In this document: positions 47,327 to 52,059 of the stretch, one piece after another
Layout of the letters: each line of letters begins with the position of its first letter
Numbering within the stretch: position 1 is the stretch's first letter
Origin: Halomonas alkalicola
GTDB lineage: Bacteria; Pseudomonadota; Gammaproteobacteria; Pseudomonadales; Halomonadaceae
Assembly: GCF_030704205.1 (NCBI RefSeq)
Contig: NZ_CP131913.1
Span: 1,364,001-1,428,000 of the forward strand
Length of the DNA: 64,000 nt
Direction of reading: 5' to 3'
Notes under the pieces: model-generated
Seen by the model: the letters and a program-made list of their open reading frames with translations, nothing else
Database searches by the model: none
Told to the model about the DNA's origin: nothing
Program-made: the position numbers and the translations under genes

Positions 47327-50300
47327 CTACTCGCCGAAGGTGTCGCCGTAGCTGTCCGGGGCCAGGTCCTCGAAGCGGGTGTACTTGCCGATGAAGGCCA
47401 TGTGCACCGTGCCGATGGGGCCGTTACGCTGCTTGCCGATGATCAGTTCGGCGAGGCCCTGGTTGTCGGGGTTGTCCGGGTTGTAGACCTCGTCGCGATA
47501 GACGAAGGCGATGACGTCTGCATCCTGTTCGATGGCGCCGGAGTTATGAGTGACGATGCCGTCGGCCAGCCAGCAGGCATTGCCGGGCACCGTCAGGTCG
47601 AAGACCTCCTCCTCTCCCTCGGCCACGATCTCGACGATACGATCCCAGAAGAGGTCGTCTTCCAGGCGGGACTTCAGCGCCTCTTCATCCAGCAACTGCG
47701 CGTAACTTGCCAGGGTCGTGCGCGAAGGAGCGAAGCCGAAGTGCGAGCTGCCGCCATAAGACGTCCCTCGCAGGCGCGCCATCTCCCGCTGACTGACGCC
47801 GCGTTCTGCCATCAGGGCCTTGACCTCCCGGAAGGCCTCACGGGGAAGGGTGTCGATATTGGTATTGGGGATGACACCGGCCAGATGCGCCAGCAGCTCG
47901 GCGGCACGAGCCTGCTGCTCGCCGAACGCGCCGACGCGCTCCAGGAAGCGGCGCTGCGGCTCGACCCCCGAGATATCCGCGGTGAACCAGCCCTCACCAC
48001 CCTTCGCAACGATATGCTTGATCCTGGCCTGAATACCGAAGCGTAGCAGCAGGGCCGCCACATCATCGACCAGGCGGCGGCTGGCGGTGCTGAAATAGAT
48101 GCGCCCGCGCCCCCGGGCACTCAGGGTGATGCTGCCATCGGTCGCCCACAGGTGACGCAGGAAGAGCGCCAGCTGATCATCATCGAGGCGGAAGATACCT
48201 TCGGGAAGGTGTTTCTCCCGGGAGCGCTGGCCGAAGATACCCAGCGCCTTGAGCCACTTTCCCACCCCCGCCGGGTGCCAGCGATTGCCGTTGCCGGCAA
48301 TCACCAGCTGGTGCCAGCAGCCGCGCCCGGGATGACGGCTGACTCGGGAGCCGAGCGCTTCGGCGGCTTCCGTCACCGCCCGGCTGTTGGCCTCGCTGGC
48401 GGTGGTATAACGCAGCGGTTGGCCGGAGACATAGCTGCCATCCCCCACCAGATGGGCCAGCAGGATCAATGCCTCGTCATCCCAGCGCTCGGGGCGCGCA
48501 GGCGCCGGCAGATGGCTGGCCAGGGCCAGGCGGTCCCCCTCTCCCAGCTCCGACAGCGTCTTCCAGCCCTCCCAGGCCCGCAGCCGGTGCTCGGCGGTGC
48601 AGCGCAGAGTCCGCCCGCTGGCCAGGCGCACACGCCACACGGGGCGCCGCCCCACCGGCCACACCTTGTCGCTGGCCGCCGGCTCCAGACGTCCGGCGGC
48701 ATTGACCGACCACAGCCGCGGCGTCTGCCCCACCAGCTCCGCGATGGGGCGGCGCGTGCCATCGGTCAGCATGACCAGGGTGTCGCCGGTCACGCACTCA
48801 CGCAGGTCCGACATCACCGGGCGCTTGTTGGGGCGCTGCTCCAGGGAGCGGTTGAGCTGGGAGAGCGCCACCACCGGGCAGCCGAACTCCTTGGCCATGC
48901 CCTTGAGCGAGCGGGAGATCTCGGAGATCTCCCCGGTGCGGTTCTCGGAGAAACCGGGAATCTGCATCAGCTGCAGGTAGTCGATCATCACCAGACCGAC
49001 GTTGCCGTGCTCGCGCACCACCCGCCGGATGCGCGAGCGCATCTCGTTAGGGGAGAGCGCCGCGGTGTCGTCGATGAACAGCTGCTTGTCCTTGAGCAGG
49101 TTCACCGCCGAGGTGAGCCGCGGCCAGTCCTCGTCCTCCAGCTGGCCGGTCCGCACCCGGGTCTGGTCGATGCGCCCCAGCGACGAGAGCATGCGCAGCA
49201 TCAGCGACTCGGCGGGCATCTCCATGGAGAAGACCATCACCGGACGGTCGCTGGCGATCACCGCATGCTCCACCAGGTTCATGGCGAAGGTGGTGTTGTG
49301 GACGCAGACATCCTCGGCGACGAAGTTATGGGTCCCGTCCACGGTCAGGTCATAGACCTGCTGATGCCCCAGAGGGGTGATCTCGACGATCTCGTCCCAG
49401 TAGAGGTCCGAGTCGGCCAGGTTCGCCAGGTACTCATCCTCCAGCACAGCGGCGAGCTCCGCCGCGCGCGCCCGCGACAGGCAGCGCTCGCTGCCGCCGC
49501 TGAGGTGCAGATTACCACCCTCGGGCAGCCGGCGACCGGCCGCTTCGAACAGGTGACGCCAGGAGCGCTCTCCCTTGATCGCCTTCACATAGCGATTGAC
49601 CGAGCGCGGAAGGCTGTCGCGATTGCTGTGATGCCGCTTGCCGCCCAGACACGCCTGGACCTCGGCTAGCCGTGACTCCTTGCCAAAGATCCCGATCTCG
49701 GCGACAAAGGTCTCGATGCTGGCGCGGTCGAGAATCTCCAGCTCCCAGGGCAGGCAGTCAGGACTGGCCTTGGCGTGGGGCTTCTCACGCACCTTGGCCA
49801 GGATGCCGAAGCGCAGCAGCAGGTGCTGCACCTCACGGATCAGTTCCCGGCTGGATGAGGCGTAGCTGACCCTGGCCTGGCCGCTGGCCTGCACGAAGGC
49901 GCTGCCGTCACAGGCGAAAAGCCGGTTGAGGAAGAGTGCCAGCAGCGGCTTCTCGAGGCGGAAGATTCCGGCAGGCATCCGCTTTGCGGTGGCTTTCATC
50001 CCCCATACCCCATGGGCCTCCAGGAAGCGCCGCATCGGGCTGCTGGCATTCTTCGCCGCCCGGGCGTAGTCGTCCACTTCGAGCTCGGCCGGCGGAACCT
50101 CCAGTACGTGGCAGAGCCGCCCGAAGGTTGCCTCGGCGGGCATGGCCCGGCCCTGGCACCAGCCACTCACCGCCGCCTTGCTGACGTTGAGCGCACCCGC
50201 CAGGACCTCCCCGGTCATCCCGGCCCGAGCCAGGGCCCCGCGAAGCGCCCTGCCGAAGGCCTCGCGTGCCGTCACCAGGGCCTGGGGCTCACGGCTCACA

Positions 50301-51472
50301 CGCAGGGCGGGAGTGCGCCCGGCGCTCTCCACCGGCCGGCACACCAGCCCGGGAAAGGCCGCCACCGCCTCGTCGAACTCCGCGCGCAGGCGCGGGTCGG
50401 CGTTGGTGAAGAGCGCATTGGTCTGGGTCGTGCCGCCGTCCGCGATCATGTAGGCCAGCACCTTCACCTGATGCTCCGGCAGGCGCTCCCGGCCGAAGAC
50501 CGGCAACCGCCTCGGCACGGCCACACGCTCCCCTACCGCGAGGCGCTCCAGAGGCTGCCAGCCGTCGCCCGTCAAGAAGGGGTGCGTAAGGGTCGTGCAG
50601 ATCTCGCGGCCCAGCGCCGTGCGAACCCGGAAGACGGGCTTGCACCCATCATCCACGAAGGCGCTGGCGCACGCCGGCGCCAGACGAAAGTCATCACCCA
50701 GAGAGAGCAGGTCGGCCTGCTGTCGGGCCACCAGCTCATCGATGGTGACCAGCGCACCGCTGGCCGGGTCCACCAGGCGCGAGCCGGCCATGATGCATTT
50801 GCCCATGGAGGGCCGCCCCGCGATGATCACCAGGTCCGAAGGCTGCAGGCCCGAGGTCATCTCGTCCAGGTCGCGGAAGCCGGTGGAGAGCCCGGTCATC
50901 TCCCCCTTCATGTTGAAGAGCTCGTCGATGCGATCCACCGCCTTGGCGAGCAGCTCGCTCATGCCGATGGGCCCGCCCGACTTGGGGCGCTCCTCGCTGA
51001 TCTGGAACACCAGCCGCTCGGCTTCGTCGACCAGCTCGTCCGCCGGCCGCCCCTGGGGGCTGAAGGCGCCGTCGGCGATCTGGCTGGCGGCGCGGATCAG
51101 CTTGCGCAGGGTGGCGCGCTCGCGAACGATATCGGCGTAAGCGCGGATGTTGCTGGCCGAGGGGGTGTTGCGGGCCAGCTCGGCGAGGTAGGCGAGCCCC
51201 CCCACGGTATCGAGCTGGTCGCGCCCCTCGAGCGCCTCGGAGAGGGTCACCACGTCCAGCGGGCGGGCCGCCTCGGCCAGCCCCGCCATGACGTTGAAGA
51301 TCAGCCGGTGCTCGTAGCGGTAGAAGTCGTCGGCCACCAGACGGTCGGCGACGTTGTCCCATGCCTGATTGTCGAGCATCAGGCCACCCAGCACCGACTG
51401 CTCCGCCTCCAGCGAGTGGGGCGGCACCTTGAGGGCGGCGGTTTCCTTGTCGTGCTCGAGGAGCTCGTTCAT
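47327..51472 (-). CDS. dnaB: Replicative DNA helicase DnaB precursor with two inteins
   Basis: Unwinds DNA ahead of the replication fork. The 1381-residue precursor contains three DnaB extein segments totalling 462 residues, the normal DnaB length. The N-terminal domain has PPHSLEAEQSVLGGLMLDNQAWD. Walker A (IAGRPSMGK then TTFAMN) is split by intein 1. Walker B is in VGLVMIDYLQLM. The conserved SDLRE-SGAIEQDADVI segment is split by intein 2. Each intein has an N-terminal cysteine and a C-terminal His-Asn, and the next extein residues are Thr and Ser, so both should splice. I prefer the ATG at 51472 with AGGTG upstream; a GTG at 51484 is also open. It is last in rpsF-rpsR-DUF2232-rplI-dnaB. 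Confidence 0.95.
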   Translation of the reverse strand: MNELLEHDKETAALKVPPHSLEAEQSVLGGLMLDNQAWDNVADRLVADDFYRYEHRLIFNVMAGLAEAARPLDVVTLSEALEGRDQLDTVGGLAYLAELARNTPSASNIRAYADIVRERATLRKLIRAASQIADGAFSPQGRPADELVDEAERLVFQISEERPKSGGPIGMSELLAKAVDRIDELFNMKGEMTGLSTGFRDLDEMTSGLQPSDLVIIAGRPSMGKCIMAGSRLVDPASGALVTIDELVARQQADLLSLGDDFRLAPACASAFVDDGCKPVFRVRTALGREICTTLTHPFLTGDGWQPLERLAVGERVAVPRRLPVFGRERLPEHQVKVLAYMIADGGTTQTNALFTNADPRLRAEFDEAVAAFPGLVCRPVESAGRTPALRVSREPQALVTAREAFGRALRGALARAGMTGEVLAGALNVSKAAVSGWCQGRAMPAEATFGRLCHVLEVPPAELEVDDYARAAKNASSPMRRFLEAHGVWGMKATAKRMPAGIFRLEKPLLALFLNRLFACDGSAFVQASGQARVSYASSSRELIREVQHLLLRFGILAKVREKPHAKASPDCLPWELEILDRASIETFVAEIGIFGKESRLAEVQACLGGKRHHSNRDSLPRSVNRYVKAIKGERSWRHLFEAAGRRLPEGGNLHLSGGSERCLSRARAAELAAVLEDEYLANLADSDLYWDEIVEITPLGHQQVYDLTVDGTHNFVAEDVCVHNTTFAMNLVEHAVIASDRPVMVFSMEMPAESLMLRMLSSLGRIDQTRVRTGQLEDEDWPRLTSAVNLLKDKQLFIDDTAALSPNEMRSRIRRVVREHGNVGLVMIDYLQLMQIPGFSENRTGEISEISRSLKGMAKEFGCPVVALSQLNRSLEQRPNKRPVMSDLRECVTGDTLVMLTDGTRRPIAELVGQTPRLWSVNAAGRLEPAASDKVWPVGRRPVWRVRLASGRTLRCTAEHRLRAWEGWKTLSELGEGDRLALASHLPAPARPERWDDEALILLAHLVGDGSYVSGQPLRYTTASEANSRAVTEAAEALGSRVSRHPGRGCWHQLVIAGNGNRWHPAGVGKWLKALGIFGQRSREKHLPEGIFRLDDDQLALFLRHLWATDGSITLSARGRGRIYFSTASRRLVDDVAALLLRFGIQARIKHIVAKGGEGWFTADISGVEPQRRFLERVGAFGEQQARAAELLAHLAGVIPNTNIDTLPREAFREVKALMAERGVSQREMARLRGTSYGGSSHFGFAPSRTTLASYAQLLDEEALKSRLEDDLFWDRIVEIVAEGEEEVFDLTVPGNACWLADGIVTHNSGAIEQDADVIAFVYRDEVYNPDNPDNQGLAELIIGKQRNGPIGTVHMAFIGKYTRFEDLAPDSYGDTFGE
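47543..48796 (-). other. DnaB intein 2 (418 residues) with LAGLIDADG endonuclease
   Basis: It starts at Cys in CVTGDTLVMLTDG directly after SDLRE and ends VTHN directly before SGAIEQD. Splicing block B is RTLRCTAEHRL, with the TxxH motif at intein residues 67-70. Blocks F and G are EEEVFDLTVPGNACWLADG and GIVTHN. A dodecapeptide homing endonuclease is indicated by LAHLVGDGSY near residues 113-122 and LRHLWATDGSI near 213-223. A helix-turn-helix-like stretch, ERGVSQREMARLRGTSYGG, is near 331-349. Confidence 0.93.
49295..50797 (-). other. DnaB intein 1 (501 residues) with LAGLIDADG endonuclease and HTH domain
   Basis: Inserted inside the Walker A loop, between Lys of RPSMGK and Thr of TTFAMN. 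It begins CIMAGSRLVDPASGALVTIDEL and ends DVCVHN. Block B is ICTTLTHPFLT, with TxxH at intein residues 69-72; block F is QQVYDLTVDGTHNFVAED. Endonuclease motifs are VLAYMIADGGT near residues 113-123 and LNRLFACDGSA near 290-300. Between them, at about 180-245, lies an XRE-type helix-turn-helix (MTGEVLAGALNVSKAAVSGW). Confidence 0.93.
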
Positions 51473-51550
51473 GGCGAGGGGCACCTGGGTAACGCGGGGA
51501 GCTCATTCTACCCCAGGCCGCTGGCTCTGCCAGCGGCCGAAAAAGACGCA

Positions 51551-51612: not shown

Positions 51613-52059
51613 TTACTCGGCCACGACCACCACGCGCACGGTGGCGTCGACTTCCGCATGCAGCTGCAGGTGGATGTCGTATTCGCCGGTGGCGCGGATC
51701 GGGCCTTCCGGCATCTTCACTTCGCTCTTGGCCACATCGAAGCCGGCAGAGGCGATGGCCTCGGCCAGGTCGCGGGGACCGATGGAGCCGAACAGCTTGC
51801 CCTCGTCGCCGGCCTTGGCGACCAGGGAGAGTTCGATCTCGTTGAGCTGGGCGGCACGCGCTTCGGCCTCGGCCTTGCGCTCGGCGGCCTGGGCCTCGAG
51901 CTCGGCGCGCTGGGCCTGGAAGGCCTCGATGTTGTCCTTGGTGGCCGGCACGGCGAGGCCGTAGGGCACCAGGTAGTTGCGGCCGTAGCCAGGCTTGACG
52001 GTGACCTGGTCGCCCAGGCCGCCGAGCTTGCCGATATTGTCGAGCAGAATGACTTCCAT
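51613..52059 (-). CDS. rplI: 50S ribosomal protein L9
   Basis: A 148-residue L9. It begins [40 protein letters not shown], the conserved N-terminal RNA-binding domain, continues with a long alanine/glutamate-rich helix, and ends in the C-terminal domain ([15 protein letters not shown]). L9 binds 23S rRNA near the L1 stalk. It follows the DUF2232 gene by 15 bases and is followed by a strong terminator. Confidence 0.97.

Follow-up and report, generated by a model that had tools for sequence, protein, structure and literature searches.

The window analysed here, a stretch of 64,000 nucleotides from Halomonas alkalicola (NZ_CP131913.1, positions 1,364,001 to 1,428,000), contains the chromosomal dnaB gene, which encodes a precursor of the replicative helicase with two class 1 inteins, each bearing a LAGLIDADG nuclease (Table 1). 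Very probably these are two separately mobile, self-excising elements that entered the gene by homing, with the double state reached stepwise. After translation, each intein would excise through its Cys1 and the +1 Thr or Ser, leaving a 462-residue helicase with its Walker A loop and its DNA-binding H4 loop made whole. The nuclease of each intein would cut the empty site of another dnaB allele, into which repair would copy the intein, and a double allele would most likely form when an intein enters a gene in which the other is already present.

The interrupted dnaB gene

The region 47327–51484 on the minus strand is a single open frame of 1385 aa that starts with GTG and is free of internal stops, whereas the plus-strand reading of 47327–51472 is broken by stops (one frame tried). 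Translation from the ATG at 51472 gives a precursor of 1381 aa, the alternative GTG (51484) lying four codons further upstream; counted from the ATG, the joined exteins comprise 462 aa. Within the precursor Pfam identified the DnaB N domain, three stretches of DnaB_C, two stretches each of LAGLIDADG_3 and Intein_splicing, and a helix-turn-helix (HTH) inside intein 1; PF14528 matched two stretches, one per intein. The protein scored 1161.8 against the NCBIfam model PRK07773 for replicative DNA helicases (cut-off 780) and 531.2 against the DnaB model TIGR00665 (cut-off 385.25). Open frame, family models and junctions bear out the sequence-only reading of this DNA, which had proposed a dnaB gene interrupted by two inteins; its intein lengths (501 and 418 residues), junctions, motifs and the length of the joined DnaB were all right, and the strand (minus) was left unstated. 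The possibility that the interrupted gene is a pseudogene was rejected on the basis of the stop-free frame and a low ratio of nonsynonymous to synonymous substitutions (dN/dS, see below). No further inteins were found in the 3.6-Mb genome with PF14890 and PF14528 (E 0.001).

Both inteins start with Cys1, which is invariant in 62 aligned rows for intein 1 and in 61 rows for intein 2. Block B reads TLTH in intein 1 and TAEH in intein 2, the two block F sequences are VYDLTV and VFDLTV, with an Asp (aligned by eye), and the C-terminal junctions are HN/T (Thr+1) and HN/S (Ser+1), respectively. Both have the HINT fold expected of a class 1 intein. The conserved acidic residues of the nuclease are present as D120 and D297 in intein 1, where D120 is invariant in the 62 rows, and as D119 and D220 in intein 2. 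Intein 1 interrupts the P-loop ahead of Thr+1 (site b); intein 2 interrupts the H4 loop ahead of Ser+1 (site a). Family models, conservation and structure models support the prediction that both inteins are intact for splicing and as nucleases. Each combines a complete splicing domain with a two-motif nuclease at a site that is empty in most relatives, in agreement with the earlier proposal of mobile inteins at functionally essential sites.

Table 1. Position of dnaB, its exteins and inteins, and further features (residue ranges of the inteins refer to the 1385-aa frame; Asp120 and Asp297 are numbered within intein 1).
Feature	Position	Strand	Details and basis
dnaB, chromosomal replicative helicase precursor, two inteins	47327..51472	-	ORF, family models, junction reading
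N-extein	50798..51472	-	DnaB N domain to K of Walker A (GRPSMGK); Pfam, junction
Intein 1	49295..50797	-	501 aa, residues 230-730; site b in P-loop; flanks ...AGRPSMGK / CIMAGSRL ... CVHN / TTFAM...
Intein 1, first LAGLIDADG motif	50432..50461	-	VLAYMIADGG, Asp120
Intein 1, Xre-like HTH module within first LAGLIDADG half	50078..50260	-	HTH_31, structure model
Intein 1, second LAGLIDADG motif	49901..49933	-	FLNRLFACDGS, Asp297
Middle extein	48797..49294	-	TTFAM...SDLRE, 166 codons
Intein 2	47543..48796	-	418 aa, residues 897-1314; site a in H4 loop; flanks ...VMSDLRE / CVTGDTL ... VTHN / SGAIEQD...
Intein 2, first LAGLIDADG motif	48434..48463	-	LLAHLVGDGS
Intein 2, second LAGLIDADG motif	48131..48163	-	FLRHLWATDGS
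C-extein	47327..47542	-	SGAIEQD... through stop
rplI, adjoins dnaB	51613-52059	-	Authors' own reading of ORF
PFGI-1/SPI-7-type integrative element genes	G000:C1 about 1838500-1858700		L006, L007

Comparison with known two-intein helicases

The junctions place the two inteins at the insertion sites that Kelley et al. (2018; PMC6195587) call b (intein 1) and a (intein 2), which answers the question, raised by the sequence-only reading, of whether they correspond to known dnaB-site alleles. Double occupation of this pair of sites is known already from Mycobacterium smegmatis DnaB, in which DnaBi1 lies at site b (P-loop) and DnaBi2 at site a (H4 motif). The host protein is the same, and there too the site-a intein is of class 1 with a homing nuclease. 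DnaBi1, however, is described there as a class 3 mini-intein without nuclease and with a Cys48-Cys118 pair, whereas the Halomonas site-b intein is of class 1 and contains a two-motif LAGLIDADG nuclease as well as an HTH module. In the definition given by the same paper, class 3 inteins lack a nucleophile at position 1 and have a WCT triplet that includes the block F Cys; as both Halomonas inteins have Cys1 and a block F Asp, splicing of the DnaBi1 type was ruled out.

Intein 1 contains 12 Cys, including C67 right before block B and C498, three residues before its end, in a CVHN that is also found in the 62-row consensus. C498 is a possible candidate for a redox partner of Cys1.

Stress-sensitive splicing has been reported for M. 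smegmatis DnaBi1 at site b (Kelley et al., 2018), and the inteins might likewise be kept as host switches that hold back DnaB splicing under stress and so pause replication. The cysteines of intein 1, including the conserved CVHN, are consistent with such a role. We nevertheless consider it unlikely: the mycobacterial switch is a class 3 intein with a Cys48-Cys118 pair, intein 1 belongs to class 1, neither intein is present in 80 of the 88 genes of the genus, and both nucleases in the genome of the window (hereafter G000) keep the motifs that a mobile parasite requires.

Searches at E 0.001 found 2676 relatives of intein 1 (7989 candidates scored) and 3542 of intein 2 (7994 scored), of which the best 120 each were listed. 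Two-intein DnaB proteins with the same two sites are found in Vreelandella aquamarina (P0004), V. vilamensis (P0008), Alkalilimnicola ehrlichii (P0010), Thiothrix subterranea (P0083), Methylomarinovum (P0114) and Leptothoe (P0098), with an intein 1 of 497–507 aa and an intein 2 of 416–422 aa. Among the matches listed, the Vreelandella and Alkalilimnicola inteins are 64–67% identical to those of Halomonas; for Thiothrix, Methylomarinovum and Leptothoe these values are 44–48% (intein 1) and 53–65% (intein 2). In the databases, the pairing thus spans more than one phylum; a search of titles and abstracts found no literature on these proteins. In Ectothiorhodospira sp. PHS-1 (P0020), the junction pattern delimits a 501-aa intein 1 and a 182-aa intein 2 that is too short for a nuclease.

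Site occupancy in the genus and family

Sister genomes were surveyed for empty sites, as the sequence-only reading had proposed. Among 90 genus genomes 88 dnaB genes were read (G072 and G084 gave no dnaB reading), and 80 of these are empty at both sites. Four have intein 1 only (G004, G034, G052, G015), two intein 2 only (G077, G078) and two have both (G000, G060). Parsing succeeded for 87 genes (79 empty), and G055, split by a frameshift, was judged empty by eye. As 80 of the 88 genes are uninterrupted at either junction, the double insertion is not a chance artefact. All 85 genes that could be compared at equal length (G082 and G014 were dropped) share GRPSMGK/TTFAMN at site 1 and VMSDLRE/SGAIEQD at site 2; therefore the protein targets of both inteins are present across the genus. 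An 821-aa dnaB frame in G002 proved to be an upstream extension without intein.

In the family, 19 of 275 genomes match intein 1, 15 match intein 2 and five match both, where 1.04 would be expected (Fisher p 0.0018); in the genus, the two double carriers among 88 compare with 0.27 expected (p 0.022). These p values are raw, uncorrected for kinship. Junctions were read in the genus only, and some family matches are partial (G222, G250, G212). There are too few independent pairs to assess mutual dependence of the two inteins on the tree. The G222 match (G222:C1:3095500-3097018) is a remnant of intein 1 with five stop codons in the N-terminal match, either decayed or badly assembled.

Movement of the inteins between lineages

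Both inteins are under purifying selection, since dN/dS is low: 0.14–0.18 for intein 1 (14 of 15 pairs; dN is 0 between G000 and G004) and 0.095–0.146 for intein 2 (6 pairs), with 0.021–0.105 for the exteins. For the protein trees, P0093, P0085, P0065 and P0049, which the junction pattern failed to split, were dropped; SSL-5 and H10-9-1 duplicate the genes of G077 and G078. The hosts G077 and G078 sit in one group of nine in the extein tree (support 100), but the intein 2 tree joins G077 to G000 and G060, not to G078 (approximately unbiased test, p 0.015). At least five changes of state for intein 1 and at least three for intein 2 are needed on the extein tree.

Additional evidence comes from G004, which is labelled as the same species as G000 and has intein 1 only. 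Upstream of the gene the two genomes mostly differ at 2–10 positions per 100 bases (1 to 15 in most bins), with 50 and 21 differences in the two bins just before the conserved dnaB start. Over about 2018 bp comprising 42 bp before site 1, all of intein 1 and most of the middle extein, only 3 differences occur, and the silent divergence of intein 1 between these genomes is about 14 times below that of the extein. Between site 1 and the stop, the 714 bp of extein contain 8 differences, all silent, 7 of which lie between −25 and +29 around site 2, within 55 bp. This island reads as a sharp conversion footprint centred on site 2, within a long shared tract around site 1. The G000 version of it has its closest counterpart in G060, which likewise carries both inteins (2 of 61). 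As the middle and C-terminal extein of G060 are themselves closest to the empty gene of G047, this favours the view that a G060-like donor passed intein 2 to the G000 lineage; over the N-extein, the gene nearest to G060 is that of G000 (35 of 582, against 37 for G047). Alternatively, intein 2 may have been lost in G004, or a G004-like empty allele may have taken up intein 1 while site 2 was skipped.

Together, these comparisons show that each intein has travelled among Halomonas lineages independently of dnaB itself. Ancient vertical descent followed by recurrent loss would fit the silent divergence (dS) between G000 and G060, which is 0.30 and 0.22 for the inteins and 0.24 for the exteins, and a loss through conversion with an empty allele would leave a site-2 island in G004 as well. 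The near-identity of intein 1 in G000 and G004, the rejection of the host grouping by the intein 2 tree and the number of state changes make this explanation improbable.

As for possible vehicles, phage and plasmid collections were searched with intein 1, and intein 2 was searched in viral contigs only. No close carrier of intein 1 was found among plasmids (matches of 29–36% identity in 5 of 72,556 records) or phages (28–43% in 4 of 50,697 records). Viral contigs gave three loci for intein 1 (27%, 30%, and 65% confined to the last 40 residues) and two for intein 2 (21%, and 46% across 37 residues).

A second dnaB gene on an integrative element

G000 also encodes a full-length, intein-free DnaB of 467 aa at G000:C1:1856423-1857823, which scores 314.7 bits on PF03796 and keeps an intact GRPSMGKT. 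The sequence-only reading had named a second uninterrupted dnaB as an observation that would speak against it; such a gene is present, yet it refutes neither the inteins nor their splicing. It does show that the statement that no helicase activity is possible before splicing was too strong for the cell. G000 has a helicase gene independent of splicing and may not rely on spliced DnaB alone.

The second dnaB appears to sit on an integrative element of the SPI-7/PFGI-1 type. Nearby genes encode ParA, a PFGI-1-type ParB, an STY4528-family replication protein, AcaB/PFL_4669, TopB and PFL_4695, and TIGR03764, NF040582, TIGR03761, TIGR03765 and TIGR01056 each exceed their curated cut-off at the element. 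The second dnaB itself is matched best by NF040583, under that cut-off (575.4 of 655). A tRNA-Thr lies beside the ParA gene, and a tRNA-Thr/Gln/Phe cluster and mutY lie beside these genes. A third DnaB-like match at C1:1871845 reads as RadA in our reading of its translation. At each intein site, the DNA of the second gene is identical to the chromosomal gene at 27 of 40 bases. In G078, two PFGI-type ParB genes and an extra DnaB-like copy with one internal TGA are found besides the gene with intein 2.

If the element-borne DnaB can take over, the chromosomal gene could tolerate inteins or even poor splicing. The second protein is complete, with an intact P-loop, and 12 of the 90 genus genomes have an element-type DnaB (≥92% identity), 5 among the 8 intein carriers and 7 among the remaining 82 (raw Fisher p 0.0008). 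In a clade of 19 genomes to which 6 of the 8 genus carriers belong, the association shrinks to 5 of 6 carriers versus 4 of 13 others (p 0.05), and outside the genus there is none (3 of 21 versus 17 of 164 at E 1e-165, p 0.40). At that threshold 21 of the 29 family carriers lack such a DnaB. In the listed N-terminal stretch, moreover, the second protein shares 54% identity with the chromosomal DnaB of G000 (mostly 53–58% for listed stretches across the genus). We regard a takeover as very unlikely. Because the carriers cluster in one clade, no link exists outside the genus and most family carriers have no such DnaB, we interpret the genus-level association as the result of gene flow within one clade and not of need. 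That the element, with its intein-free DnaB, helps to move chromosomal dnaB alleles between strains of this clade and cushions the cost of two inteins, a conjugative element and two parasitic inteins thus sharing a niche, with the 55-bp island marking the entry of one intein while the neighbouring site was left out, is a long shot.

In G015, G052 and G077 the interrupted dnaB is the only one found, with no other DnaB at E 1e-60. As these cells would otherwise not live, the close alleles of intein 1 (G015, G052) and intein 2 (G077) presumably splice there.

Several points weigh against two mobile, splicing inteins. These three alleles differ from those of the window (77–79% identity for intein 1, 93% for intein 2), and the genomes are drafts, in which a helicase weaker than E 1e-60 or one left unassembled is possible. 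The inteins of G000 and G060 diverge about as much as the exteins, as would be expected from vertical descent as well. A comparison across species showed carrier flanks to be no closer than random, with 936 of 5000 permuted sets as low at site 2 and 3656 of 5000 at site 1, and co-conversion across species was rejected on this test at both sites. The site-2 event may have been a gain in G000, or a loss or failed entry in G004.

The Halomonas dnaB gene as a homing system

Turgeman-Grott et al. (2023; PMC10643990) found for Haloferax MCM that either of two nuclease-bearing inteins homes well by itself, whereas joint homing into an empty allele is very poor. In both systems a single gene for a replicative helicase has two inteins with nucleases, and some relatives have one intein or none; the archaeal MCM differs in that homing and interference were measured, whereas the Halomonas DnaB is known from sequence footprints. 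With six single against two double carriers in the genus, and one species that has both, the Halomonas gene fits the stepwise picture drawn for Haloferax, although doubles are commoner than independence predicts. Turgeman-Grott et al. (2023) state that the generality of their finding needs more research and that M. smegmatis dnaB differs, one of its inteins being free of nuclease. As both nucleases have intact motifs, the Halomonas dnaB offers a bacterial case for mutual help or hindrance of two nuclease-bearing inteins.

Halomonas are culturable halophiles and in general harmless. As the genus shows all four site states, and a single species two of them, they provide a natural series for the homing of neighbouring inteins. 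Splicing is not readily equated with viability in a strain whose mobile element encodes a second DnaB; relatives without one are better suited.

The helix-turn-helix module of intein 1

Pfam places the HTH_31 match at residues 409–469, and in the structure model the corresponding helices span residues 171–239 of intein 1, within the first LAGLIDADG half; an extra helical stretch (374–461 of intein 1) follows the nuclease. The best structural matches, TliVMA (7qss), PI-TkoII (2cw7) and PI-PfuI (1dq3), likewise combine a splicing domain, a LAGLIDADG nuclease and an accessory domain, which is HTH-like in TliVMA and PI-TkoII (PMC8966425), but are only 17–22% identical over the aligned part.

The module has been lost from intein 1 in four listed relatives (G060, P0011 of H. 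mongoliensis, P0012 and P0082), with three different sets of ends; G060 (L015, L105) and H. mongoliensis also lack a portion of the first LAGLIDADG half. When dN/dS was calculated by domain, the HTH stretch was the loosest in G034 (0.35) and narrowly so in G052 (0.21 versus 0.18), and not in G015 (0.26 versus 0.27).
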